Assembly: GCA_023248175.1 (NCBI GenBank)
Contig: JAHFFC010000016.1
Location: 1 to 11,249 of the forward strand
Length of the DNA stretch: 11,249 nucleotides
Direction: 5' to 3'
Source: Candidatus Omnitrophota bacterium
GTDB taxonomy: Bacteria; Omnitrophota; Gorgyraeia; JACOVV01
The translations under genes were made by a program, and so were the position numbers. This document shows, one piece after another, positions 1 through 11,249 of this stretch. Every line of letters begins with the position of its first letter. The first letter of the stretch is position 1. The notes under the pieces are model-generated. The model saw nothing but the letters and a program-made list of their open reading frames with translations, did no database searches and was not told the DNA's origin.

Positions 1-1059
1 TTAGTGGAGATGATTTGCCCTGTCGCTGAACGATATCGAGAGTCGAAGGAAAAAGAGTGGTCTGTGCTGACGTGGTTTGAAGTTTTTACGACGATTGCAT
101 TCCTCTATTTTGCTGGAGAGAGAATCGGCTTTGCTGTCTTAGAAACGGGACTGGGAGGAAGGTTAGATGCAACGAATGTGGTTCAACCCAAGGTGTGCGG
201 TATTACCTCAATTAGCCACGACCATACCGCGATTCTAGGGTCGGATCTTGCAGAAATCGCTCGAGAAAAGGGAGGAATCATCAAGGAAGGGATTCCTGTT
301 GTCTCTTCTCCTCAATTTCCCCAAGTGACCGAAGTACTAGCGAAAATCGCCCAAGAGAAGAACGCTCCCTTTTATCAGGTAGGGAAAGAGATTCGCCTAG
401 AAGGTAAGATTCAACGCGATCGCCAGTGTCGAAAACAGTCATTTCAGGCGGTGGGCCGTTTGGGAAACTATCCGTTACTGACGATATCTCTTATGGGGGA
501 TTATCAAGTGAACAATGCTCTCACTGCGATTGGAATCATTGAGTGTCTCAGGGAGCAGGGGAGCCAGGTAGGGGAGAAAGCTATTGTAGAAGGATTGTCA
601 GGTGCTCAATGGGCTGGACGTTTGCAGGTCTTAAAGGAACATCCTTTAGTGGTTGTAGACGGTGCCCAGAATAAGGCGAGCGCCGCCGCACTCGCGCAAG
701 CGATTCCAGAATGGTTTTGGTATGATCATCTCCTTCTCATTATTGGGTTCTCCAAGGACAAAGATCAACAAGGAATCCTTTCGGAACTCTCTCGAATCGC
801 TCACCGGATTATCGTTACCCGCGCCGATCATCCGCGCTCCACCTCAGTTGACCGTTTGGCAGAGATGGTGGATGCCAAGAAACTCGCTGGTAAATTCTCC
901 CACGTGGACGAAGCCCTCCACAAAGCCCAGAAGATGGTCTCGACAAGTGACCTTATTCTAGTCACGGGATCGCTTTTCGTAGTCGGTGAGGCGATTCAGG
1001 CCATGCAAAAACCTTTCACCTCCGCACAGGAGAAGGCAAGGAAGCTGTTGGGGTTCTAA
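1..1059 (+). CDS. folC: Bifunctional folylpolyglutamate/dihydrofolate synthase, 5'-truncated by window edge
   Basis: This is the C-terminal roughly 350 residues of FolC, a cytoplasmic ATP-dependent Mur-ligase-family enzyme that adds glutamate to dihydropteroate and folates. The reading frame is open to base 1. The N-terminal P-loop (GTNGKGS in the family) is absent, so the gene starts upstream; a GTG at 4 is only an internal codon. Visible family motifs are GLGGRLDATN (about 148-177), HDHTAILGSDLAEIAREKGGIIK-like central helix (about 220-285), GDYQVNNALTAIG (about 499-537), WAGRLQVL (about 610-633), DGAQN (about 658-672), GFSKDKD and VTGSLFVVGEA near the end. The usual DGAHN motif reads DGAQN here, which may be a lineage variant. 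The stop codon overlaps the next start (TAATG), implying co-transcription and translational coupling with the DUF309 gene. Confidence 0.95.
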   Translation, partial: LVEMICPVAERYRESKEKEWSVLTWFEVFTTIAFLYFAGERIGFAVLETGLGGRLDATNVVQPKVCGITSISHDHTAILGSDLAEIAREKGGIIKEGIPVVSSPQFPQVTEVLAKIAQEKNAPFYQVGKEIRLEGKIQRDRQCRKQSFQAVGRLGNYPLLTISLMGDYQVNNALTAIGIIECLREQGSQVGEKAIVEGLSGAQWAGRLQVLKEHPLVVVDGAQNKASAAALAQAIPEWFWYDHLLLIIGFSKDKDQQGILSELSRIAHRIIVTRADHPRSTSVDRLAEMVDAKKLAGKFSHVDEALHKAQKMVSTSDLILVTGSLFVVGEAIQAMQKPFTSAQEKARKLLGF

Positions 1060-1598
1060 TGACCCTCTCTCGACTTGTTCCCAATCGGCATTTTCCGTCT
1101 TACGCCTATATTCCCCTACGTTGGCCGCATCCGACGAGAGACTCCAAGGGACATAGTTATGGGGAGGGAGATGAAAAAGTAGAACCACTGGATCCCAAGA
1201 GTTGGCGTCAATGCCAGACCTATCTTTATGGCATTGATCTTTTTAATTACGGTTACTATTGGGAAGCACACGATGCTTGGGAATCGGTCTGGCTGGCGTG
1301 TGGCCGAAAAGGAGTAACGGGCGATTTTCTAAAAGGACTCATTAAACTTGCCGCGGCCGGAGTCAAAGCTAGAGAAGGAAGAACTCAGCGTGTCCAACAA
1401 CAAGCCAAACGAGCGGAGGAGCTTTTCCGTCAGACCGCTGGCTCGGTCGGTTCTCAAAGAAGTCGTTATATGGGATTTTCATTAGCTCAGCTGATCGGTT
1501 TTGCCGGACGTCTTCGAGTCAGATCCGTTACTGCTAGTAACAAAGGTGATAACTCTGTAAAGATAGTTTTTCGATTTAAACTCCGCCCACTGCTATAA
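1059..1598 (+). CDS. DUF309 domain protein
   Basis: This 179-residue protein of unknown biochemical function belongs to the DUF309 family. The diagnostic stretch is at residues 61-97, with F-N-x-G-x-Y-x-E-A-H (E69, A70, H71), a tryptophan-rich W-E-S-V-W segment, and then DFLKGLIKLAAAGVKAREG. The N-terminal part carries a PHPTRD-x-x-GHSYG motif (about residues 23-35), which I recall from some DUF309 proteins. The start ATG shares a base with the folC stop (TAATG), so translation is probably coupled. The last 30 or so residues look poorly conserved. The stop codon lies inside a TATAAT hexamer that may belong to the mnmE promoter. The family is mostly alpha-helical with a conserved Glu/His pair; no substrate can be assigned. 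Confidence 0.85.
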   Translation: MTLSRLVPNRHFPSYAYIPLRWPHPTRDSKGHSYGEGDEKVEPLDPKSWRQCQTYLYGIDLFNYGYYWEAHDAWESVWLACGRKGVTGDFLKGLIKLAAAGVKAREGRTQRVQQQAKRAEELFRQTAGSVGSQRSRYMGFSLAQLIGFAGRLRVRSVTASNKGDNSVKIVFRFKLRPLL

Positions 1599-1599
1599 T
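1571..1599 (+). promoter_or_regulatory. Candidate sigma70 promoter for mnmE with extended -10
   Basis: A perfect TATAAT lies at 1594-1599 and is preceded by TGC, giving the extended -10 form TGnTATAAT. The -35 position at 17-base spacing reads TCGATT (1571-1576), a weak match that an extended -10 could tolerate. The -10 overlaps the stop codon of the DUF309 gene. Transcripts would begin around 1606 and run through the hairpin repeats into mnmE at 1738. Confidence 0.45.
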
Positions 1600-1610
1600 G
1601 CAATAGATTT

Positions 1611-1717
1611 CCCCGTGGTCTTGCCACGGGGTACCACACAAATCCCCTCTCCCCCCAGCGGGGGGAGAGGGCTAGGGTGAGGGGGATGAAAAGATACCCC
1701 GTGCTCTTGGCACGGGG
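1611..1717. repeat. Composite palindromic repeat: three hairpins upstream of mnmE
   Basis: The spacer between the DUF309 gene and mnmE is almost entirely palindromic. Hairpin A is CCCCGTGG (1611-1618), loop TCTTG, CCACGGGG (1624-1631). Hairpin B is a perfect 12-base-pair stem, 1645-1656 with 1660-1671, loop AGC. Hairpin C is CCCCGTGC (1697-1704), loop TCTTG, GCACGGGG (1710-1717). A and C have the same loop and stem except for the loop-closing pair, which is G-C in A and C-G in C. The 21 bases at 1681-1701 recur at 3255-3275. None of the stems is followed by a T-run, so they are not typical rho-independent terminators. Confidence 0.8.
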
Positions 1718-1737
1718 AGCATTCATTAAGAAATCCT

Positions 1738-3156
1738 ATGAAAACCTCTAGTTTAGAGGATACTATTGCTGCTATCTCTACTCCCCTTGGAGAGGGGGGG
1801 ATTGGGATTGTCCGTGTCAGCGGTAAGCAGGCGATTGAAATCACTGATAGAATTTTTCGCAGCCACAGCGGGAAGAGACTAGAAAATGTCAAAAACTTTA
1901 CGGTACATTATGGATGGATTGTGGAAGCCCCAAGCTCTAAGCTCCAAGCTCCATGCCCAAATGAAGTGATTGACGAGGTCCTCATCACTATCATGCGCGC
2001 TCCAAGAAGTTATACAACCGAGGATATGATCGAGATCAGCTGTCACGGCGGCATTCTGCCGATGCGGCGGATTTTGGATCTTCTGGTACAACAAAGAGCG
2101 CGGCTGGCAGAACCAGGAGAGTTTACCAAACGGGCTTTCTTAAATGGACGGATTGATCTTGTTCAAGCCGAGGCGGTTCTTGACATTATCCGATCGCAAA
2201 CTGATTTAAGTTTGCGGGTGGCTATGAATCAGCTCGAGGGGCATCTCTCCAAAAAAGTTCGCCAGATTCGGGAAGAGTTGTTGGATATTTATGCTTATGT
2301 CGAGGCCTCTGTTGATTTCCCAGATGAAGACCTGGAAATTCTCTCCAGTATTGACATGCTCAATCGAGTGAAAAAGACCAAAGAGGCAATTCATCGTCTT
2401 TCAGCAACGGCCGAAAGGGGGCAAATTCTTCGAGATGGAATCGTTGGAGTTATCTGCGGTAAGCCGAATGTCGGGAAATCGAGTCTGCTCAATGCCCTTT
2501 TAGGACGCGAGCGGGCGATTGTCACACCCATTCCAGGCACCACGCGGGATATCATTGAAGAAGTGATGAACCTCGATGGAATCCCCATGCGATTAGTGGA
2601 TACTGCTGGGATTCGAGAAAGTGAAGAGACCATCGAGAAAGAGGGAATCCGTCGAAGCCGAATTTATTTCGAGCGAGCTGATCTTTTGCTGACTGTAGTT
2701 GATAGCTCTGATCCTTTAACACAGGAAGATGAAAAAATTATAAAGGAAGTCGCCGGGCGTCGGGCGATTGTCGTGATCAACAAGAATGATCTTCCCCAGA
2801 AAGTTGAAAGAGGGGAAATCAAGAAATTAACCGGCGATCTTCCGATGGTCTCCATTTCTGCCTCACAGGGGAATGGACTTGATGAATTAGTAGAAGTGAT
2901 TTCAAGGTTAGTCTGGAAAGGAGAAGTGATTGCCTCCACTGAGGAACTAATAACGAATGTCCGTCACAGGGAAGCATTGATTCGTGCCGAGAAAGCGTTG
3001 GGACATTTAATTGAAACCATGGAGAAGAAGTTATCGGCAGAATTCATCTCGGTAGATATCCGCGATGCGCTGGATGCGATCGGTGAAGTCGTCGGAGAGA
3101 CAACCACCGATGATTTGCTGGGTCGGATTTTTTCGAAGTTTTGCATCGGGAAATAA
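1738..3156 (+). CDS. mnmE: tRNA uridine-5-carboxymethylaminomethyl modification GTPase MnmE
   Basis: MnmE works with MnmG to install aminomethyl or carboxymethylaminomethyl groups at C5 of wobble uridine 34 in certain tRNAs. At 472 residues it is complete. The N-terminal tetrahydrofolate-binding domain spans about 1-125 (PLGEGGIGIVRVSG, then the RAPRSYTTEDMIEISCHGG-type motif). Helical segments flank an inserted G domain with G1 GKPNVGKSS (241-249), PGTTRD (266-271), G3 DTAG (288-291) and G4 NKND (348-351). The C-terminus ends FCIGK, including the conserved cysteine. Residues about 64-74 form an unusual insert encoded by a heptamer repeat (1930-1953) in a spot where most homologues have a short turn. 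No strong Shine-Dalgarno precedes the ATG, but homology starts right at it. It lies between two hairpin-rich spacers and may have its own promoter at 1594. Confidence 0.97.
   Translation: MKTSSLEDTIAAISTPLGEGGIGIVRVSGKQAIEITDRIFRSHSGKRLENVKNFTVHYGWIVEAPSSKLQAPCPNEVIDEVLITIMRAPRSYTTEDMIEISCHGGILPMRRILDLLVQQRARLAEPGEFTKRAFLNGRIDLVQAEAVLDIIRSQTDLSLRVAMNQLEGHLSKKVRQIREELLDIYAYVEASVDFPDEDLEILSSIDMLNRVKKTKEAIHRLSATAERGQILRDGIVGVICGKPNVGKSSLLNALLGRERAIVTPIPGTTRDIIEEVMNLDGIPMRLVDTAGIRESEETIEKEGIRRSRIYFERADLLLTVVDSSDPLTQEDEKIIKEVAGRRAIVVINKNDLPQKVERGEIKKLTGDLPMVSISASQGNGLDELVEVISRLVWKGEVIASTEELITNVRHREALIRAEKALGHLIETMEKKLSAEFISVDIRDALDAIGEVVGETTTDDLLGRIFSKFCIGK
1930..1953 (+). repeat. Heptamer repeat inside the mnmE coding region
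   Basis: Three consecutive heptamers CCAAGCT, CTAAGCT and CCAAGCT (1930-1950) followed by CCA lie within mnmE. They keep the frame and encode a proline/serine/lysine/leucine/glutamine-rich insert (residues about 65-72, P-S-S-K-L-Q-A-P) between the conserved GWIVE and EVIDEVL segments. Confidence 0.7.
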
Positions 3157-3167
3157 AAAAGATTAGT

Positions 3168-3257
3168 CACCCCCTTTACTAAAGGGGGGTGAGGGAGAAA
3201 TTGAAGATGATGGAAATCAACCCTCACCCCGACCCTCTCCCTTAAAAAGGGAGAGGG
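3168..3257. repeat. Nested inverted repeats downstream of mnmE
   Basis: The first hairpin is 3168-3177 with 3181-3191 (CACCCCCTTT, loop ACT, one bulged G). The second is a perfect 11-base-pair stem, CCCTCTCCCTT (3233-3243) with 3247-3257, loop AAA. A third, longer-range 10-base-pair match, GGGGTGAGGG (3186-3195) with CCCTCACCCC (3221-3230), overlaps the right arm of the first hairpin, so the two pairings exclude each other. No T-run follows on the + strand. The stems may still mark the end of the mnmE transcript, but they look more like a mobile palindromic repeat family. Confidence 0.75.
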
Positions 3258-3351
3258 GGATGAAAAGATACCCCGCAGCTTCAGCCGAAGGCTGATCTTC
3301 TGCCAGAGGCAGATCCGCCTCAGGCGGAGCCTCAGGTATGATGCTGCGGAG
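3255..3351. repeat. Multibranched three-hairpin repeat ending in the next gene's ribosome binding site
   Basis: The element begins with the 21-base word shared with 1681-1701. A closing stem CCGCAGC (3273-3279) with GCTGCGG (3343-3349) encloses three consecutive 6-base-pair hairpins, each with a three-base loop: TCAGCC/GGCTGA (3281-3295, loop GAA), TCTGCC/GGCAGA (3299-3313, loop AGA) and TCCGCC/GGCGGA (3314-3328, loop TCA). A degenerate copy of GCCTCAGG follows at 3329-3336. The fold resembles a cloverleaf but has no tRNA anticodon or T-arm features. Its right arm overlaps the GGAGAG ribosome binding site at 3348-3353. Confidence 0.75.
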
Positions 3352-3353
3352 AG
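3348..3353 (+). promoter_or_regulatory. Ribosome binding site deciding the histidine-phosphatase start
   Basis: GGAGAG sits 8 bases before the ATG at 3362 and supports that start over the in-frame ATG at 3338, which lies inside the repeat. Its first two bases are part of the closing stem of the upstream repeat, so folding could partly hide it. Confidence 0.6.
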
Positions 3354-3361
3354 ACTTCGTT

Positions 3362-3973
3362 ATGCGTTTTTATTTAATCCGTCACGGCCAAAGCACCTGG
3401 AACAAGGAGAATCGAGTCCAAGGGCACTCCAATCCCCCTCTCTCAGAGAAGGGGAGAGGACAAATTGAGAAACTGATTCCTCGGCTGAAACGAGAGAAGA
3501 TCGAAAAGATCATCGCAAGTCCTCTGATACGAGCATACGAATCGGCCCAAATGTTAGTGAAAGGTCTGGGGATTCCCTGCCACACCCAAAAAGGACTGAT
3601 GGAGATTCATTTAGGAAGCTGGGAGGGGAAGACGCCGGATGAAGTCAACCGGCTCTACAATAACGGTTATCAGAAATGGCTCAAGGGTCCTTCCAAGATG
3701 AAAATTCCAAAGGCAGAAACCATTGTAGAATTTCGACAGCGGGCAGTGAAGGCGTTCACGGAAATTGTCGCTTCAGAGACAAAAGAGCGGGTAGTTCTAG
3801 TGACTCACGGAGGAATCTTGGCCGCCTTAATCTCCCACTGGCTCAATGCCGATTTCGATAAAATCCTCTTAAATATCTTCTTCGAGAACTCCAGTCTCAC
3901 GATCGCTGAAGTCATCAACGGCCAAGTCTATCTGACCGACATCAACGACACCTGCCACCTGCACGACCCCTAA
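3362..3973 (+). CDS. Histidine phosphatase / phosphoglycerate mutase-like protein
   Basis: This 203-residue protein belongs to histidine phosphatase branch 1, in which an active-site histidine is transiently phosphorylated. It opens with the canonical strand and motif LIRHGQS (R7, H8, G9). It continues with SPLIRA (R57), an E81-containing MEIHLGSWEGK segment and the second catalytic histidine in VTHGG (H149). The ATG at 3362 is chosen because homology begins immediately after it and GGAGAG lies 8 bases upstream; starting at 3338 would add residues encoded by repeat DNA. Length and motifs fit GpmB, CobC (alpha-ribazole phosphatase) or broad-specificity phosphatases. No cobalamin gene is nearby, so the substrate is not assigned. 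The C-terminus (residues 190-203) is rich in Asp and His and looks lineage-specific. Confidence 0.9.
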   Translation: MRFYLIRHGQSTWNKENRVQGHSNPPLSEKGRGQIEKLIPRLKREKIEKIIASPLIRAYESAQMLVKGLGIPCHTQKGLMEIHLGSWEGKTPDEVNRLYNNGYQKWLKGPSKMKIPKAETIVEFRQRAVKAFTEIVASETKERVVLVTHGGILAALISHWLNADFDKILLNIFFENSSLTIAEVINGQVYLTDINDTCHLHDP

Positions 3974-3990
3974 GGTGGTATCCTTAAAAC

Positions 3991-4033
3991 TCCCCCTTTG
4001 AAAAAGGGGGATAAAGGGGGATTTAAGGGGGGT
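3991..4033. repeat. Hairpin and G-rich direct repeats after the phosphatase gene
   Basis: A perfect 9-base-pair stem (3991-3999 with 4003-4011, loop GAA) is followed by near-repeats of AAGGGGGAT ending in TTAAGGGGGGTG. The A/G composition resembles the repeat after mnmE. No U-tract follows, so termination is possible but not supported by a classical signal. The rest of the 3974-4217 spacer holds the promoter at 4075-4103 and a 39-codon frame discussed under findings. Confidence 0.6.
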
Positions 4034-4074
4034 GTCCAAGTTGATGGGGAACTTCTGGGAATGCATTTAAAGAC

Positions 4075-4103
4075 TTAACTTATTTAGTCCGATCCGCTAT
4101 AAT
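4075..4103 (+). promoter_or_regulatory. Sigma70-type promoter of the radical SAM/glycan operon
   Basis: The -35 element TTAACT (4075-4080) matches TTGACA at four of six positions. It is separated by exactly 17 bases from a perfect TATAAT (4098-4103). The expected transcript start near 4110 gives a leader of about 108 bases before the radical SAM ATG at 4218. It is the only strong promoter seen ahead of the six tightly linked + strand genes. No operator-like palindrome overlaps it. Confidence 0.6.
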
Positions 4104-4217
4104 GGAGTACAGAATTGAACGCGTTCTGACTTTGTGGACTCCCGAAGAATCAGACAAGAACAAAATTCGATGGAGTGACACAAAGAAAATGGCTGTTATG
4201 AGAGGGGAGAAAATCAC

Positions 4218-5360
4218 ATGAATCAAGACCCGCACTATGCTTATGGCAGTCCTGCTTTGAAAGATCTGATCCTGGACGGGACGAAGATCGCTTGGCATAT
4301 GGATCGTGTTCGTGCCTGGGAGAGGGGAGAACGGATTGCTCCTATTACCATTGATATGGCGTTGACCAGGGCTTGCAATTTTGGTTGTGAATATTGTTAC
4401 GCGAAACTGCAAGAAAATGACCGAAAAACACTCACCAAAGAAGTCATGGATGCTTTCCTTGAGGATTGTGCCGAGATCGGCGTAAAAGCAATCAGCCTTG
4501 TTTCCGATGGAGAAAGCACTATTTCTCCTGTTTTTGTAGACACTGTTATTCGTGGCAGGGAGTTGGGAATTTGTATGGCTGTTGGAACGAATGGTTATGT
4601 TTTGAATCGTCGGAAACTAGAGTTAATCTTACCTCACCTGACCTACCTGCGAGTCAATATTTCCGCTGGTGAACCCAAGAGATATGCCGAGATTATGGGA
4701 GTCAAGGAAGAGTGGTTCTATCAGGTTTGCCAGAACATCCGGGACATGGTTGAAATCAAGAAAAGAGATAAATTATCCGTAACCATTGGAATGCAGATGG
4801 TTCTCATGCCGCAATATAGGGACCAAATTATCCCATTGGCGGAATTGGGGAAAGAGCTCCGGCCGGATTATTTAATCATCAAACATTGCAGTGATAACGA
4901 AGACGGTGCTTTGGGCGTTGATTATTCGGGTTATCAGGCGCTTTATGGGTTGCTCAAAGAAGCGGAAAGTTACTCTGACGATGAATATGTAGTCAAAGTG
5001 AAATGGTCCAAGATCACTCAGAATGGAACAAGGAGTTACCAACGTTGTTATGGGGCGCCCTTCATTCTTCAGATGTCAGGGACTGGTCTTGTCGCTCCGT
5101 GTGGTGGATTGTTCAACGAGCGTTATCAGAAATTCCACATTGGCAATATCACCGAAAAGCGGTTTAAGGATATCTGGAATTCAGATCAATATTGGGATGT
5201 CATGAATTACTTAGCTTCTCCAGAGTTTAACGCCCAGACAATGTGCGAAGCCCTTTGCCTGCAGCACAACGTCAATGAAGCTTTAGACGGGTACATGAAG
5301 GAAAGAATTCATCTTGAAACACCCCAGGGAGCTTCACCAGCTCATCTTAATTTCATCTAA
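4218..5360 (+). CDS. Radical SAM protein with SPASM/twitch-like C-terminal domain
   Basis: This 380-residue radical SAM enzyme binds a 4Fe-4S cluster through C53-x3-C57-x2-C60 in the motif TRACNFGCEYCY and should cleave S-adenosylmethionine to start radical chemistry. The segment around SDGEST (96-101) takes the place of the usual GGEP SAM-binding motif, and GTNGY (123-127) follows it. The C-terminal part has four further cysteines, C277, C295, C343 and C347, with G-N-I-x-E-x-x-F-K-D-I-W-N-S between them. That pattern resembles a reduced SPASM (twitch) domain holding one auxiliary cluster. The start is supported by AGGGGAG 8 bases upstream. It leads an operon of glycosyltransferase, epimerase and membrane proteins, so it may modify a sugar, lipid carrier or small peptide; the substrate is unknown. 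Its stop overlaps the next start (TAATG). Confidence 0.9.
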   Translation: MNQDPHYAYGSPALKDLILDGTKIAWHMDRVRAWERGERIAPITIDMALTRACNFGCEYCYAKLQENDRKTLTKEVMDAFLEDCAEIGVKAISLVSDGESTISPVFVDTVIRGRELGICMAVGTNGYVLNRRKLELILPHLTYLRVNISAGEPKRYAEIMGVKEEWFYQVCQNIRDMVEIKKRDKLSVTIGMQMVLMPQYRDQIIPLAELGKELRPDYLIIKHCSDNEDGALGVDYSGYQALYGLLKEAESYSDDEYVVKVKWSKITQNGTRSYQRCYGAPFILQMSGTGLVAPCGGLFNERYQKFHIGNITEKRFKDIWNSDQYWDVMNYLASPEFNAQTMCEALCLQHNVNEALDGYMKERIHLETPQGASPAHLNFI

Positions 5361-5860
5361 TGAACTCGGGCGTTTTACTCAATGGTTTTCTGTCGTTTGT
5401 CATCCTACTGGTGCTTCACCTATTGATCCGACGGTTCATCCGCGTCCAGAGAGAAATTTTACTCCTGTTCATGCTTTTCCTGTTGATTCCATTGCTGTAT
5501 TTCACCATCCTGGCCATAAAGAGCGCTGAGCCATTGACAAATTTAACAGCGGTGGCGGCTGTTTATTTTTCGTTAGCGCTGGTCTATCTGCAGACTTATC
5601 CCGTTCTTACTGTCGAGATTCCATCTTTCAAAATTTTAAGGTTGGTCTATCGTCAAAAAGGGATCACTGAAACAGAGATCATAGCTTCTATGAAAGATGA
5701 CAAGGAATTATTCGACGCCAAGGTCGAGGAATTGGAAAAAGACTCTCTTGTTAGACGATGCCAAGACGGCCGCTATGAACTCAGTGGGTCAGGCAGGACA
5801 TTAGCGAATCTTTTTATTCTGTACCGATCCTTGCTGGGGACTCAATGGGGGCAGGGATGA
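5360..5860 (+). CDS. Small membrane protein with C-terminal winged-helix-like domain (copy 1)
   Basis: I do not recognise this 166-residue protein as a named family. Three hydrophobic segments lie at about 5-23, 32-53 and 62-81. A soluble region (about 88-147) has the rhythm of a winged helix: a helix at KILRLVYRQ, then GITETEIIAS, a likely recognition helix at KELFDAKVEELEKDSLV, a beta-wing at RRCQDGRYELS, and GSGRTLA. A moderately hydrophobic end (147-160) finishes with YRSLLG. The start ATG overlaps the radical SAM stop (TAATG), and its own stop overlaps the glycosyltransferase start. The protein two genes downstream (6654-7202) has the same layout and shares V-L-H-[L/I]-L near the first segment and R-S-L-L-G near the end. 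Possible roles are a membrane adaptor for the soluble glycosyltransferase between them or a membrane-bound regulator; both are inference. Confidence 0.8.
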   Translation: MNSGVLLNGFLSFVILLVLHLLIRRFIRVQREILLLFMLFLLIPLLYFTILAIKSAEPLTNLTAVAAVYFSLALVYLQTYPVLTVEIPSFKILRLVYRQKGITETEIIASMKDDKELFDAKVEELEKDSLVRRCQDGRYELSGSGRTLANLFILYRSLLGTQWGQG

Positions 5861-6657
5861 AAAGAGTGCCGACTCTTTCAGTGGTTATGCCGTGCCTCAA
5901 TGAGGAAGAGAATATCGAGGCGGCGATGAAATCCACATTAGCTGCCTTCGATCGTTATGGTATTGAAGGAAGATTGATTGTTGTCAATGACGGTAGTACC
6001 GACAAGACACGCGACATTGTCTGTCAGTTGATGACGCGGGACAGTCGCCTTACTCTTCTGGAGCATGACAAGCCGTGGGGAGTGGGAGCTTCCTTTTGGG
6101 ATGGAGTGAAACAGTCCAAGGACGAATACGTGACGATATTTCCGGGAGACAACGAGAACAGTCCGGAAGAAACCCTGGCATACTTTGGTCTGACCGAGGA
6201 TGTAGATATCATCATTCCTTTCATTCATAACAGCGAAATTCGAGCGCGGTGGCGCCGTATTATCTCTTCCTGCTACCGTTTTATCATTAACGTTTCTTTC
6301 GGAACAAGCCTCAATTATATGAACGGTACCGTCATCTATAGTACGGCTGTCCTGAAGGAAATTCAGCATTATTCGACAGGGTTCTTTTACCAAGCGGAAA
6401 CGTTGATCCGGTTGATCCGCGCGGGGTATCTGTATGCCGAAGTCCCGCACTTCTTGCAGCGCCGCGGCTTTGGGCAGACCAAGGCGCTTTCCCTACGTTC
6501 TCTCTGGAACGTCACAAGAGGTTATTTCCGACTTATATGGGATATTCACGTTCTTCGTAAAATTGGCGGCGCCAACCTGAAGATTAACGAGACTTCAACG
6601 ACCTACCGCCGGCAATACAAGAATCTAAATCAGATACCTATGAGCGCACGGACATGA
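5857..6657 (+). CDS. GT2-family glycosyltransferase, DPM1-like
   Basis: This 266-residue protein has the GT-A fold signature of family 2 transferases that use nucleotide-sugar donors, often with a polyprenyl phosphate acceptor. SVVMPCLNEEENI (8-20), VVNDGSTDKT (42-51) and a metal-site region FPGDNENSPEE (95-105) appear in order, followed by LNYMNGTVIY and the RRGFGQTKALSLRSL block. The metal site reads GDNE rather than a plain DxD or DADxQ. No transmembrane segment is evident, whereas many lipid-acceptor relatives carry C-terminal ones; the flanking small membrane proteins could provide membrane attachment (inference). The ATG at 5857 is preferred because it forms an ATGA overlap with the upstream stop and homology begins just after it; an in-frame ATG at 5845 would add four residues. 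The stop overlaps the next ATG, again as ATGA. Confidence 0.9.
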   Translation: MKRVPTLSVVMPCLNEEENIEAAMKSTLAAFDRYGIEGRLIVVNDGSTDKTRDIVCQLMTRDSRLTLLEHDKPWGVGASFWDGVKQSKDEYVTIFPGDNENSPEETLAYFGLTEDVDIIIPFIHNSEIRARWRRIISSCYRFIINVSFGTSLNYMNGTVIYSTAVLKEIQHYSTGFFYQAETLIRLIRAGYLYAEVPHFLQRRGFGQTKALSLRSLWNVTRGYFRLIWDIHVLRKIGGANLKINETSTTYRRQYKNLNQIPMSART

Positions 6658-7202
6658 ATACTGTCTCGGATGCTCTTTTAATATTTTCGTTTTCCTGGAT
6701 CGTGCTGGCGGTGGTTCTTCATATCCTTTCTTACCGTTTGATATGGAGAGGACGCGGTCCCCGTTCACCTCAGGGGTTTCTCGCCAGATTGATTTTAGGA
6801 ATGAACTTATTCCTGCCGCCGGCTGTTCTGAAGATCGCCCGCAGTGAAGTAAGATCGGCGCAGGAAACGATTTTGATGCTGGTTTTTGTTTTTCTGGTAG
6901 TGAATAGTTTTCTCTACGCTTATTTCCATTTTTTTAACATGAGCGAGACAGCACGCCGGATTCGAATGCTCTTGCAACTCCAACTTAAGGGGGCACTTCA
7001 GGCGGAAGAGATAAAGGAAGAGTACTCTCCTGTCAGCATGGTGAGAGCTCGGTTGAATCGTCTCGTTGAAACGGGACAGATTATTAAGAAATCGGACGAT
7101 CAATATTATATTGCCAGCTTCTTTCTCCTAAAGATCGCTTTTTTGATCGTGGTATGCCGCTCCTTATTAGGGTTTGAACAACGGAGGAGAGAGAATGTCT
7201 AA
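6654..7202 (+). CDS. Small membrane protein with winged-helix-like domain (copy 2)
   Basis: This 182-residue protein has no family name I recognise. Hydrophobic segments lie at about 6-30, 42-61 and 70-94. A soluble winged-helix-like stretch follows (about 98-152): helix ARRIRMLLQL, then ALQAEEIKEEY, a likely recognition helix VSMVRARLNRLVETGQI, and a short wing KKSDDQYYI. A fourth hydrophobic helix (153-172) ends in CRSLLGF. Order and motifs match the protein at 5360-5860, including V-L-H-I-L-x-x-R-x-I after the first segment and R-S-L-L-G at the end, so the two are probably distant paralogues. Its start overlaps the glycosyltransferase stop (ATGA), and its last codons hold the GGAGGAG ribosome binding site and start of the epimerase gene. 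DNA binding is not shown; the domain could serve protein contacts. Confidence 0.8.
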   Translation: MNTVSDALLIFSFSWIVLAVVLHILSYRLIWRGRGPRSPQGFLARLILGMNLFLPPAVLKIARSEVRSAQETILMLVFVFLVVNSFLYAYFHFFNMSETARRIRMLLQLQLKGALQAEEIKEEYSPVSMVRARLNRLVETGQIIKKSDDQYYIASFFLLKIAFLIVVCRSLLGFEQRRRENV

Positions 7203-8181
7203 AGTGCTTATCACAGGGGGAGCTGGTTTTATCGGAAGTCATTTAGTGGAACGTTTAGTCCATGAAGAAGACGAAGTGGTAGTGATTGACAATTATTCAA
7301 CCGGACGGCTTTCCAATATGGCGCCGTTTCAATCAAAAAAAAACTTCCTGTTTTACCAAAAAGACATTGGCGATTTTGATTCAATTAAAGAGTTGTTTTT
7401 AGGGGTTGAGGCGGTTTATCACATTGCCGGGCTTGCCGATATTGTTCCTTCAATTCAAAGACCGCTCGATTATTTCAGGTCAAATGTAGATGGAACCGTG
7501 AATGTGATGGAAGCGGCCCGCTTAGCGGGGGCCAAACGTATTGTCTATGCAGCGTCGTCCTCCTGCTATGGGATTCCAGATATTTTTCCTACTCCAGAAA
7601 CAGCCCCTGTTCGTCCGCAATATCCCTATGCTTTGACTAAGTTTTTGGGAGAACAAATAGTACTGCACTGGGGACAAGTTTATAAAATGGGGGTGAACTC
7701 TCTTAGGTTCTTTAACGTTTACGGGCCAAGGGCCAGAACCAGCGGGACCTACGGCGCTGTCTTCGGCGTTTTCCTGGCACAAAAAATCCATGGTAAACCC
7801 TTTACCGTGGTCGGCGATGGCACTCAGACCAGAGATTTCACCTATGTCGCCGATGTGGTTGACGCGGTGATTACCGTGGCCAGAAGCCAGTTAAAGAATG
7901 AAATTTTCAACGTTGGTTCCGGTCGGGCGGTGAGTGTGAACCAAATCGCAGAGCTTTTGGAGGGAGAAAAGATCTTTGTGCCAAAACGCCCCGGAGAACC
8001 GGACTGCACTTTTGCCGATATCTCAAAAATCGAGAAACTGATCGGTTGGCGGCCCAAAGTCTCCATCGAAGAGGGGGTCAGCAGACTGCTCCAATATATG
8101 AATGATTGGAAAGAAGCTCCCGTGTGGACTCCCGAATCCATCGCGACAGCAACACGTGATTGGTTCCGTTATTTGGGATGA
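7195..8181 (+). CDS. NAD-dependent sugar epimerase/dehydratase (extended SDR)
   Basis: This 328-residue extended short-chain dehydrogenase/reductase probably acts on a nucleotide sugar, for example as a UDP-sugar 4-epimerase. The NAD-binding motif GGAGFIG is at 8-14. Catalytic residues are visible as SSSCYG (121-126) and Y145-x3-K149 in YPYALTKFLGE. RFFNVYGPRA and GDGTQTRDFTYVADVV are substrate-side motifs typical of GalE/WbpP-like enzymes. The C-terminal end (PVWTPESIATATRDWF) extends beyond the core SDR fold. The ATG at 7195 is chosen because GGAGGAG lies just upstream and homology starts with MSKVLITGGAG; an in-frame TTG at 7174 is less likely. It overlaps the upstream gene by 8 bases, and its stop overlaps the next ATG (ATGA). 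Exact substrate cannot be told from sequence alone. Confidence 0.93.
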   Translation: MSKVLITGGAGFIGSHLVERLVHEEDEVVVIDNYSTGRLSNMAPFQSKKNFLFYQKDIGDFDSIKELFLGVEAVYHIAGLADIVPSIQRPLDYFRSNVDGTVNVMEAARLAGAKRIVYAASSSCYGIPDIFPTPETAPVRPQYPYALTKFLGEQIVLHWGQVYKMGVNSLRFFNVYGPRARTSGTYGAVFGVFLAQKIHGKPFTVVGDGTQTRDFTYVADVVDAVITVARSQLKNEIFNVGSGRAVSVNQIAELLEGEKIFVPKRPGEPDCTFADISKIEKLIGWRPKVSIEEGVSRLLQYMNDWKEAPVWTPESIATATRDWFRYLG

Positions 8182-8588
8182 AATCTCCTCGGCACGTTAT
8201 CCTTATCTGTGAAGACGGCTGGGAAGGAATCCGAAAGTTTGCCCTGCTTCTTTCGGAAAGGAAAATTCCTGTTTTGGTAATCATTAAAGGAAATCCGGGG
8301 CGCGAAGTAAGAGAAATGATTTCTCCAAAACCGGATATCCGAAATTATTTTTTTGAGCGGAATTTATACCGCGTTGTTCTTTATCCTCTGTTAGTATGGT
8401 TTTATTTGCGATACCGATGGGATATCTGCTGTATTACTAAGGAAAGAACTTACAAGGAATTAAGGATACTACAGAGACTCTTGGGATTTTCCCTTTATTA
8501 CTTCCTGGAATCGGGAACTAACTCCCTGCTTCAAGACCGCTTTGGAAAGAAGATTTTTCTTCTCGATTATATCCAACATCTGAATTAA
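8178..8588 (+). CDS. Protein of unknown function, last gene of the radical SAM/glycan operon
   Basis: This 136-residue protein is not recognised. It starts at an ATG overlapping the epimerase stop (ATGA), which supports translation. Residues 5-40 alternate hydrophobic strands and a helix (HVILICEDGWEGIRKFALLL then IPVLVIIKG) like the first half of a Rossmann-type unit, as in the N-terminus of some glycosyltransferases. A hydrophobic, aromatic-rich stretch at about 64-78 (LYRVVLYPLLVWFYLRY) could associate with the membrane. The last 39 residues (98-136) lie in the 120-base overlap with the convergent glycosyltransferase gene. It may be a complete small protein or the 5' remnant of a longer gene cut short when the opposing operon was joined. 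Base composition does not differ obviously from its neighbours. Confidence 0.6.
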   Translation: MKSPRHVILICEDGWEGIRKFALLLSERKIPVLVIIKGNPGREVREMISPKPDIRNYFFERNLYRVVLYPLLVWFYLRYRWDICCITKERTYKELRILQRLLGFSLYYFLESGTNSLLQDRFGKKIFLLDYIQHLN

Positions 8589-9386
8589 TTGATGCTGATA
8601 GGTTAACCTGCCAACGGCTGTTTTGTATCCTTCTTCGGCAATGGCCGTTCTCTCACGCGGATGCGAAAGGTAATGATCTATTAACTGGAAAAGTTCTCCA
8701 GGTGAACGATACAAGACTAGATGTTGCCGGTCTTGTAACCCCAATACTTCAACCGTATCATCTTTTGGAGGGTTTGTTAAACAGAGAGTTCCGCAGGCCA
8801 TGATCTCCAAAGAACGCATGGTCAGTGTTTCCCGCCGGATCGCGTAGCTAAAACCAATTTTTGAACGGCTATAGATATCAGAAATGTTTCGATAATCTGC
8901 CTGCCCGATATAACTATTGGGGTAACGCTCTCTTAATTCTTGAAGGTAAAACTTTCTCGGGACGCCGCCGTCTGTCCCGACAAAACCGATGTCTAAATCC
9001 CGTTCCAGGTCGAGCCGTTTGTGGATTTCAGGATCACAGCATCCCCCGGGAATCCATACAACATCAGCTCCCGCCCGTTTCAACGACTCCACTCCATCTT
9101 TCATGGGGCAAAAAACAAGATCGTACCGAATGGACAGGGGTTTAATTCTTTTTAAAGCGAGATGCGTATCGGAGACCCAATAAACAGCCGGTCTTAGGTG
9201 ACTTGGCGGAGGGGAAGAGTAATCTCCATCGTCAATGCGAAAGTAAAGATCACAAGGGGTTGTCAGTTGCGCGAGTTGAGCGGGAGTCACTTGCAGGACT
9301 TCATGGCCCAGTTGGCAGAGAGCCCGCTCAAAATAAACGCCAATCGTATCCGGCCGGTAAAGATTGAAGATAACCGCGATCCGCAT
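8469..9386 (-). CDS. CgeB-type glycosyltransferase
   Basis: This 305-residue protein resembles glycosyltransferases of the CgeB / Glyco_trans_1_2 type, a GT-B fold group found in surface glycan loci. The N-terminus MRIAVIFNLYRPD is a Rossmann strand. DIGFVGTDG (131-139) opens the C-terminal domain. The donor-site block is clear at 187-225: TLTMRSLEIMACGTLCLTN, then TVEVLGLQD and HLVLYRSPGELFQLIDHYL, followed by a RERTAIAEEGY helix and LTYQHQL. Homology fades after about residue 271, so the last 34 residues, which overlap the convergent gene, look like a non-conserved tail. The start codon overlaps the stop of the upstream epimerase gene (TAATG on the - strand). As the last gene of the - strand operon it probably adds a sugar made by its neighbours; donor and acceptor are unknown. 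Confidence 0.87.
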   Translation of the reverse strand: MRIAVIFNLYRPDTIGVYFERALCQLGHEVLQVTPAQLAQLTTPCDLYFRIDDGDYSSPPPSHLRPAVYWVSDTHLALKRIKPLSIRYDLVFCPMKDGVESLKRAGADVVWIPGGCCDPEIHKRLDLERDLDIGFVGTDGGVPRKFYLQELRERYPNSYIGQADYRNISDIYSRSKIGFSYAIRRETLTMRSLEIMACGTLCLTNPPKDDTVEVLGLQDRQHLVLYRSPGELFQLIDHYLSHPRERTAIAEEGYKTAVGRLTYQHQLIQMLDIIEKKNLLSKAVLKQGVSSRFQEVIKGKSQESL

Positions 9387-10351
9387 TAACCATTTTCCTT
9401 AAACCATGCGATGGTTCGTTTGAGCCCTTCATCCAGTTCTGTGGTTGCTTTGAATCCAAGAGTCTTTTCTGCTTTGCGGATATCCGGAACGCGGCGCTGG
9501 ATATCTTCGTAGCTGTCGCCGTACACTTCGCGCTGGGAGACAAAGCGAACGGAGGAACTTGATTTTGAGAGTTGAGTCATTCGCTTAGCCAGTTCCAGCA
9601 TGGATATTTCCCTGTTACTGCCGATGTTAAAAACTTCTCCTTCGGCCTTTTCTGTTTCCATGGCTTTGATGGTTCCTTCGACGGCGTCGTCAACATACGT
9701 GAAACAGCGGGTTTGGTTTCCATCTCCGATGATGGTGACAGGTTTGCCCTGCAGGATCTGCCCCAGAAAAATAGTGACCACCCTTCCTGTGTCGAGACGA
9801 TCCATTCGGGGACCATAGACGTTGAAATAACGGACAATGGACATGCTCAACCCTAGTTTTTTATAAGCGAAACAGAAATGTTCCCCGATCGCTTTTGAAG
9901 TTGAATAACACCACCGGTCAATCGCGGTTGATCCAAGAACCCGGTCATCATTTTCCGAGTAAGGAATCTTCGCACTGCGTCCGTAGATTTCCGAGGTGGA
10001 GGCAAAGCAGACTTTTTTATTGTATTTGTGGGCGAGTTGGAGAACTAACTGGGTTCCATTGACGTTGACATTGAGGACGGCGTAAGGGTTGATCACGTAA
10101 TGATGAACGCCGACCACCCCCGCCAAATGATACACCTGGTCGCACTGGCTGATGAGATTGTCAACGATCTCCCGATTGAGGATGGAATCCCGGACAAAGC
10201 GGAAACGGAGATTCTTAAAGTGGTGGAGGATTTTATCCTCGCCGCCGGAGGAGACGTCGTCCAAAACCACGACCTCATGCCCGCGCTCTAATAATTTGTC
10301 GACCAGGAAAGATCCCAAAAAACCCGCGCCCCCAGTGACTAGAATTTTCAC
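9386..10351 (-). CDS. NAD-dependent sugar epimerase/decarboxylase (UXS-like extended SDR)
   Basis: This 321-residue extended SDR acts on a nucleotide sugar. It has GGAGFLG (7-13), YHLAGVVG, STSEIYG (118-124), and Y149-x3-K153 in YSTSKAIGE. It also has RYFNVYGPRMD and GRVVTIFLGQILQGKPVTIIGDG, which resemble UDP-glucuronate decarboxylases and related epimerases. The C-terminal stretch EVYGDSYEDIQRRVPDIRKAEKTLGF recalls homologues annotated as UDP-glucuronate decarboxylase or UDP-glucose 4-epimerase, so the exact reaction is open. It overlaps the methyltransferase stop by four bases (ATGA) and the glycosyltransferase start by one base (TAATG), within a - strand operon. It is clearly distinct from the + strand epimerase at 7195-8181, so the two operons probably make different sugars. 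Confidence 0.9.
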   Translation of the reverse strand: MKILVTGGAGFLGSFLVDKLLERGHEVVVLDDVSSGGEDKILHHFKNLRFRFVRDSILNREIVDNLISQCDQVYHLAGVVGVHHYVINPYAVLNVNVNGTQLVLQLAHKYNKKVCFASTSEIYGRSAKIPYSENDDRVLGSTAIDRWCYSTSKAIGEHFCFAYKKLGLSMSIVRYFNVYGPRMDRLDTGRVVTIFLGQILQGKPVTIIGDGNQTRCFTYVDDAVEGTIKAMETEKAEGEVFNIGSNREISMLELAKRMTQLSKSSSSVRFVSQREVYGDSYEDIQRRVPDIRKAEKTLGFKATTELDEGLKRTIAWFKENG

Positions 10352-11145
10352 GATGACTCCTTCCGAAAAACATACAGTTTCTGAGTACCGTAGTCTCCGA
10401 CGTTTGGGAAAAGAGTAAAGAGTTTGTTGATTTCCGAATCAAAACAGGGTTCTTTATCTTTGCCGATGATGAAGGGTTGAAGCACGCGCGATCCGATGTA
10501 GTAGGTACTGCTGAAGTTGATATTCTCGACTAATTTCATCCATGGCTTAAGGGTGGGAAAGAGTTTTTCTTCGTCAAGATAGAGGTTATGCCACGGTTGC
10601 GGGATTTCGTTCAAGCCGAACTCTTTCCGGAGCCGGTTCATATTCCGCCACCCTTGCGCCGATGCTTCCGATAAGAGCAGAGTACCTTGTGGTTTCAACA
10701 CCCGGATAAATTCCTGAAGCGCTTTTTGCTGGAGCTCCCAGCTCGGAAGATTGATGATGCATCGTTTTGAAACAACCTGATCGTAGTGGGATTTTTTTTC
10801 CTTGAGGCCAAGAACGTCTCCAATCCCGAACGAGACCCGTTTCTGGAACTGCCGCGGCGATTTTGCGAGCAGCTCTTTCGCGTCTTGAATCATTGACTCT
10901 GAATAATCCACTCCGCGGACAGAAATGGATGGGCGGGTTTTGGCAAATTCCAGCGTGGAGTAGCCGTTGGCGCATCCGACGTCGAGGAGGGGGCCGCGAC
11001 GGGTCAAATATTTTCGAAGAACCTGATTCTCTAAATTAATCAGGAGCTGGTCCGGCATGGAGACGATCGCTTGTCCGTGAAAATTCTTGGAGCGCTCTTC
11101 GTAATATTCCTTGATCTTGCCGATTTGTTGAGCCGCTTCTTTCAT
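10348..11145 (-). CDS. Class I SAM-dependent methyltransferase
   Basis: This 265-residue cytosolic methyltransferase has a Rossmann SAM-binding core. Motif I is LLDVGCANGYS (53-63), an acidic residue D80 follows strand 2 (RGVDYSESM), GDVLGL lies near 110, and the post-core motif LKPQGTLLLSE is at 150-160. The C-terminal region (about 165-265), rich in aromatic residues, probably forms a substrate cap. The start is supported by AAGGAG on the - strand (11156-11161), which lies inside the end of the upstream aminotransferase gene. The stop overlaps the next gene's start (ATGA). Between a sugar aminotransferase and a sugar epimerase it most likely methylates a sugar or glycan, although the family also includes quinone and lipid methyltransferases. 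Confidence 0.88.
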   Translation of the reverse strand: MKEAAQQIGKIKEYYEERSKNFHGQAIVSMPDQLLINLENQVLRKYLTRRGPLLDVGCANGYSTLEFAKTRPSISVRGVDYSESMIQDAKELLAKSPRQFQKRVSFGIGDVLGLKEKKSHYDQVVSKRCIINLPSWELQQKALQEFIRVLKPQGTLLLSEASAQGWRNMNRLRKEFGLNEIPQPWHNLYLDEEKLFPTLKPWMKLVENINFSSTYYIGSRVLQPFIIGKDKEPCFDSEINKLFTLFPNVGDYGTQKLYVFRKESS

Positions 11146-11148
11146 CCC

Positions 11149-11249
11149 TTAAAATCTCCTTGTAATGTAAGCCAGTTGCCGCACGATATAATCCATCTTC
11201 TGCTTGGATAAATCCGGATAGAGGGGGAGAGATAGAACTTCGTTTGAAA
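11149..11249 (-). CDS. DegT/DnrJ/EryC1/StrS-family aminotransferase, C-terminal end only
   Basis: The - strand frame that enters from the right edge and stops at 11149-11151 reads S-N-E-V-L-S-L-P-L-Y-P-D-L-S-K-Q-K-M-D-Y and ends in YITRRF. The LSLPLYPDLS pattern followed by a D-Y-I/V helix is the characteristic C-terminus of PLP-dependent sugar aminotransferases of the DegT/DnrJ/EryC1/StrS family, which aminate nucleotide ketosugars. Only about 33 codons are in the window; the PLP lysine lies outside. The stop is three bases upstream of the methyltransferase ATG, so both sit in one operon. Confidence 0.8.
   Translation of the reverse strand, partial: SNEVLSLPLYPDLSKQKMDYIVRQLAYITRRF

Follow-up and report, generated by a model that had tools for sequence, protein, structure and literature searches.

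What do two small, related membrane proteins do on either side of a soluble glycosyltransferase? The question is raised by an 11,249-nucleotide stretch of a Candidatus Omnitrophota bacterium (GCA_023248175.1, contig JAHFFC010000016.1, positions 1 to 11,249 of the forward strand; hereafter the window), in which the genes for M1 (5360..5860, + strand, 166 aa) and M2 (6654..7202, + strand, 182 aa) flank that of a 270-residue family 2 glycosyltransferase (GT2; 5845..6657, + strand). A first-pass annotation of the sequence had proposed that the two proteins form a scaffold or sensor pair holding and controlling the enzyme. M1 and M2 represent a real, widespread, and unnamed two-gene module of lipid-linked sugar gene clusters, in which the type of system is known and the component is new. 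By analogy, they may act as a two-protein membrane accessory subunit of a lipid-linked-sugar synthase, akin in action to GacJ/WpsB or DPM2/DPM3, a proposal that we regard as evenly poised.

The two reading frames, each with three N-terminal hydrophobic segments, were confirmed at these coordinates, and the segments are modelled as membrane helices (residues 3-26, 32-54, and 59-84 in M1; 6-30, 39-64, and 69-95 in M2, model pLDDT 86.5). In both models a winged helix of ~75 residues, residues 85-161 in M1, begins 1-3 residues past the third membrane helix. The predicted folds agree in their elements and in how these are ordered, and the winged-helix-like region initially noted in both proteins is borne out. 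The M1 domain is MarR-like, with a structure search returning MarR-type matches, none at E ≤ 0.001; M2 gave no match at E ≤ 0.001 against the PDB, and a second structure search returned only helix bundles over residues 1-96. Comparison of two 12-row profiles by hhalign aligned M1 with M2 over 159 columns (probability 97.6, E 3e-12), and at the level of sequence profiles the kinship runs the length of both proteins, as first suspected. A 5-row profile of DUF2304, a family of small three-helix membrane proteins, reached probabilities of only 4.3 against M2 and 2.9 against M1, which rules out a chance resemblance of two hydrophobic proteins.

Each family has a set of conserved residues of its own, and some conserved positions are common to both. 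The common motif V-L-H-[L/I]-L-x-x-R-x-I reads VLHLLIRRFI in M1 and VLHILSYRLI in M2, and its His and Arg, which lie close to where the first membrane helix ends, are kept in both families (H20 in 90% and R25 in 97% of 33 M1 rows; H23 in 95% and R28 in 98% of 123 M2 rows). The RSLLG motif near the C-terminus is likewise present in both window proteins, but it is only partly conserved across the families (M1 R156 100%, M2 L172 81%), and in the models the hydrophobic end that carries it is the final helix of the winged-helix domain and not an extra membrane segment. Invariant across the 123 M2 rows are Y90, F91, H92, N95, E98, R101, R102, Y124, R133, and R136. Residues 90-102 form the signature YFHFFNMSETARR, and the stretch 88-102 runs from the last part of the third membrane helix into the winged helix. 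In M1, P44, Y80, P81, P88, G145, F152, and R156 are kept in the 33 rows. The conserved residues may make one polar face at the membrane boundary.

Neither protein exceeds any Pfam or NCBIfam cut-off, and neither falls within a curated family. Pfam MarR scores M1 at 19.2 bits, under its cut-off of 24.6, and does not match M2; PF10066 (DUF2304) and PF04138 (GtrA) match neither protein at E ≤ 1. Membership of DUF2304 by sequence is ruled out by the PF10066 result together with the hhalign values above. A profile search with M2 retrieved 875 proteins at E ≤ 0.001, with no precomputed Pfam domain among the 120 of these matches that were listed, and the M1 profile retrieved at least 25 proteins.

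The pair travels together. A contig scan with M2 gave 11 loci, titled Gammaproteobacteria, Melainabacteria, Cyanobacteria, Spirochaetes, Nitrospirae (two), Clostridia, Erginobacter, Deltaproteobacteria, Euphemobacter, and KSB1, and in all 11 an M1 gene adjoins M2 or lies one gene off. At E ≤ 0.001, M2-class matches occur in 9/59 genomes of relatives, 34/285 of the window's phylum, and 9/198, 2/198, and 3/240 of three other phyla, a patchy distribution. No relatives of the M2 protein of locus L005 were found in 72,556 plasmid records. Counting was based on 57 loci (the window, L002-L012, L039, L042, L046-L072, L122, L131, L132, and L151-L163), which are not independent, since several come from one genus and genomes G302 and G773 contribute two each. 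Left out were L073 (a weak match with an internal stop and no recognised M protein), L013-L032 and L033-L036 (smaller copies of the same places or near relatives, with L033 coming from G284 and L034/L036 being repeats), and weak matches of G230 and G263.

Both partners or two copies are present in 55 of the 57 loci, spanning about ten bacterial groups: 47 have one M1 and one M2, five have two M1-class proteins, two have M1 with an M2-GtrA fusion, and L050 has both partners, one masked in gene calling. The exceptions are L071, with a single member, and L122, whose one member sits where the contig stops. Of 44 tabulated rows (two places being listed twice), 40 have M1 upstream of M2; the rest are L050 and three loci in which both proteins are M1-class. 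This strict pairing makes M1 and M2 a conserved, inherited unit. The order M1-GT2-M2 is another matter: the bracketing whose conservation the first-pass annotation had asked about is confined to 3/57 loci (the window, L002, and L046), most others having M1 and M2 adjacent, and it is rejected as a conserved feature.

The association with the enzyme itself extends well beyond the window. Within five genes of the pair, 39/57 loci have a GT2 that scores >90 bits against the window's enzyme, compared with 0/233 control positions, as anticipated if the pair goes with this type of GT2. The control comprised 233 pseudo-pairs from 248 genes in 15 random stretches, not glycan clusters, of genomes from the window's phylum (20 were drawn, and five contigs were too short). 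Distance matrices over 31 loci correlate between M1 and M2 (r 0.72), M1 and GT2 (0.73), and M2 and GT2 (0.62), with 0/2000 permutations as high. In G246, the pair and the GT2 are on separate contigs.

A crude hydropathy count detects no hydrophobic segment in the window's GT2 (PF00535, 68.8 bits), consistent with the original description of an enzyme without membrane segments between two membrane proteins. Its nearest solved relatives include ArnC, GtrB (sll0501), and dolichol-phosphate-mannose synthase (DPMS), the last matching at E 6e-4. GtrB and ArnC bear C-terminal membrane helices, which by the same crude count are not present here. Residues D102, R133, and R137, taken as its metal- and phosphate-binding residues, are kept in 41/41 rows (the window counted twice), and we read D102 and R133/R137 as equivalents of Asp98 and Arg140 of WpsA (PMC10821137), by motif order and not by alignment. 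The enzyme probably loads sugars onto a membrane lipid. A second GT2 of the same type (149 bits) is encoded in the window's own genome (G000:C54, L124), adjoining another radical SAM protein on a 5.6 kb contig from which the pair is absent.

How the pair might serve such an enzyme can be outlined from these features. The epimerase and related neighbouring genes would make a nucleotide-activated sugar, which the GT2 would transfer to polyprenyl phosphate at the inner membrane face. M1 and M2 would form a paralogous membrane heterodimer serving as the accessory subunit. Because the GT2 has no membrane helices of its own, it is proposed to dock on two parts of M1/M2, the cytosolic winged helices and the conserved polar face where these proteins leave the membrane, to which M2 would contribute H23, R28, Q40, H92, N95, E98, R101, and R102. 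Docking would place the enzyme next to its lipid substrate and make it more active, and the lipid-linked sugar, once flipped, would serve a GT-C transferase of the YfhO, DUF2079, or PMT type. Physical holding or control of the GT2 by the pair is suggested by analogy with GacJ/WpsB (PMC10821137). The scaffold idea is thus plausible, with its closest parallel published for other families; the sensor role proposed alongside it found no support of its own.

Several observations weigh against an accessory subunit of the GT2. In 18/57 loci such a GT2 is missing from the five nearest genes, and in five of the 57 a large membrane protein (at least 400 aa, with at least 6 segments by crude hydropathy count) is missing as well. 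Among 27 genomes whose GT2 scores ≥190 bits, ten (G190, G051, G272, G238, G213, G273, G050, G212, G178, and G196) show no pair by M2 profile, M1 profile, or inspection of the GT2 surroundings, and their GT2s are likewise free of membrane segments by the crude count. The pair is therefore not obligatory for a GT2 of the window's type. The figure of 10/27 may fall, because the profiles miss divergent members: M1-class proteins of G008 and G264 were missed by the M1 profile and found by an iterated one. The distance correlations are partly shared descent, with partial r falling to about 0.51-0.52. A two-row tandem query, for which the 7998 candidates sharing most words were scored, yielded no fusion of M1 to M2 or of an M protein to GT2 at E ≤ 0.001, the lack of the latter also counting against the proposal.

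The strongest competing explanation is a flippase function. M1 and M2 could themselves be a flippase, a heterodimer of small membrane proteins turning the polyprenyl-phosphate sugar outward, as has been proposed for GtrA or for ArnE/ArnF; a paralogous heterodimer would fit this reading. GtrA was detected in 9 of the 46 pair-bearing genomes (two of them as fusions) and went undetected in the other 37, as in the window's genome (71% complete). Set against 2/10 genomes without the pair, this indicates that the pair and GtrA do not vary in step and that the pair may take GtrA's place; by the same figures GtrA is also missing in 8/10 pair-less genomes, and Wzx-type flippases were not searched. At some loci, however, the flippase seat looks taken: M2 is fused to GtrA in L060 and L061 (L060:6404-7351 and L061:10079-11032; PF04138, 69 and 61.6 bits, cut-off 26.1), where the match is confined to the extra C-terminal part (residues 200-310), and separate GtrA genes adjoin the pair in L005 and L008. 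Flipping, moreover, needs no cytosolic winged helix. A flippase function for M1/M2 is accordingly considered unlikely, and the same fusions and adjoining genes tie the pair to polyprenyl-phosphate sugars.

Still less probable, in our estimation, is a general scaffold, bound mainly to GT-C transferases, that links these with polyprenyl-phosphate-sugar synthases. Large membrane proteins lie within five genes of the pair in 37/57 loci as against 38/233 control positions, some pairs are near one but without a GT2, and a GT2 or a large membrane protein is found within five genes in 52/57. In L152 (1-12500, minus strand), the order is M1-YfhO-M2, the YfhO-type protein having 1083 aa, 16 hydrophobic segments, and 46.6 bits (cut-off 28.5); in L131, a YfhO protein over the cut-off adjoins the pair. 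The window, however, shows no GT-C gene, and among 10 large neighbours scanned, four match YfhO (two over the cut-off), one matches DUF2079, and five match no family. GT2 loci lacking the pair also hold large membrane proteins, and with a control that was not taken from glycan clusters the link may merely mark such clusters.

A membrane-bound regulator, with the MarR-like winged helix binding DNA and the membrane part sensing a lipid-linked sugar, is the least probable of the three, considering the mean negative charge of the M1 winged helix (-3.3 over 33 rows, -1.6 over 47 loci), its MarR score under the Pfam cut-off, and its position so close to the third membrane helix, which would leave little reach to DNA. 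For the accessory-subunit proposal, the charges offer a weak hint of an M1/M2 heterodimer: the net charges of the two winged helices are opposite in sign in 31/47 pairs, with a weak correlation (Pearson -0.31, p 0.035; Spearman p 0.07).

In the window, M1, GT2, and M2 belong to a run of five + strand genes (4218-8181) that overlap or touch one another. The run is opened by a radical SAM/SPASM protein (4218..5360, + strand; PF04055 54.9 bits, PF13186 30.3 bits), whose junction with M1 reads TAATG, and closed by an NAD-dependent sugar epimerase/dehydratase (7195..8181, + strand; PF01370 199 bits), which overlaps M2 by 8 nt. The single-start overlaps described on both sides of the GT2 hold. That with M2 is ATGA at 6654-6657; that with M1 is ATGA at 5857-5860 if the GT2 starts at 5857, the likely start as it gives the same overlap as on the M2 side, whereas a start at 5845 would give a 16 nt overlap. 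Promoter- and terminator-like sites in 3900-8700 are rarer than in shuffled sequence. A second, convergent glycan run on the minus strand (8469-11145) encodes a glycosyltransferase (PF13524), an epimerase, and a methyltransferase.

Sugar-nucleotide genes recur around the pair elsewhere. A radical SAM relative (>250 bits) lies within five genes in 19/57 loci, and the neighbourhoods of 40 loci contain split thiamine diphosphate (TPP) enzymes (the C-terminal part in 18 loci), a second radical SAM protein, and HldE-like and GmhA-like proteins (9 loci each, under curated cut-offs). One recurrent cluster (L046, L047, L051-L057, L059, L063, L070, L071, and relatives) combines the epimerase (EPI), an HldE-like fusion with its two domains swapped, a GmhA-like isomerase, a second radical SAM protein, a split transketolase- or PDH-E1-like TPP enzyme, GT2, and radical SAM/SPASM, which suggests an unusual chain-extended or branched sugar. 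B12-binding radical SAM proteins adjoin the pair at L005:5925-7466 and L009:2965-4407, and a very large protein adjoins M2 in two Melainabacteria/Cyanobacteria loci (L003:8441-12151 and L004:8624-12940), the L003 copy having many EF-hand repeats.

No published description of the M1/M2 pair was found, judged mostly by titles and the opening lines of abstracts, in a literature that mostly excluded subscription journals. We tentatively place the pair in a new heterodimeric class, made of paralogues that each join a MarR-like winged helix to three membrane helices, which would dock and switch soluble lipid-linked-sugar synthases in many uncultured lineages, sometimes bridging these to GtrA and YfhO-type partners, and would have arisen independently of GacJ and DPM2/DPM3. 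If so, an unnamed pair of protein families joins the bacterial machinery for decorating surface glycans, and a transcription-factor fold has been recruited as a membrane-side docking part. It would also add a third, independent way, next to those of GacJ and DPM2/DPM3, of tying a soluble sugar-lipid synthase to the membrane, and the pair could serve as a marker for the sugar-lipid gene cluster of uncultured phyla.

Among known systems, GacJ/WpsB (DUF2304, PF10066) comes closest. These proteins have been described as activators and membrane anchors of the GT2 enzymes GacI/WpsA (PMC10821137, PMC8327497). The GT2 WpsA has no membrane segments and makes GlcNAc-phosphate-undecaprenol, three-helix WpsB activates it, and a modelled complex of the two puts the active site at the membrane (PMC10821137). 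Like M1 and M2, GacJ/WpsB is a small three-helix membrane protein encoded next to a GT2 without membrane segments; unlike it, M1 and M2 are a paralogous pair with a winged helix, without a PF10066 match or profile kinship. Human DPM1 requires DPM3 as an anchor and DPM2 as a regulator (PMC7728079), which again sets two small membrane proteins beside a soluble catalytic subunit, although DPM2/DPM3 are shorter and eukaryotic and are compared with M1/M2 by description. The MarR family shares the fold of the M1 cytosolic domain, which in M1 is joined directly to three membrane helices, scores below the Pfam cut-off, and is negatively charged. Finally, GtrA/GtrB/GtrC and CsbB/GtcA/YfhO are multi-component transmembrane glycosylation systems whose GtrB/CsbB-type synthases bear their own membrane helices, and the pair is not a named component in the part of PMC8035078 available. 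Their constituents co-occur with the pair, as a GT2, a GtrA domain (fused to M2 twice), and YfhO-type enzymes, although most pair-bearing genomes lack a detected GtrA; the window has the GT2 only, the GtrA fusion and YfhO are seen at other loci, and most neighbours are at best putative GT-C enzymes, while the M1/M2 pair is the new component in a recognised type of system.

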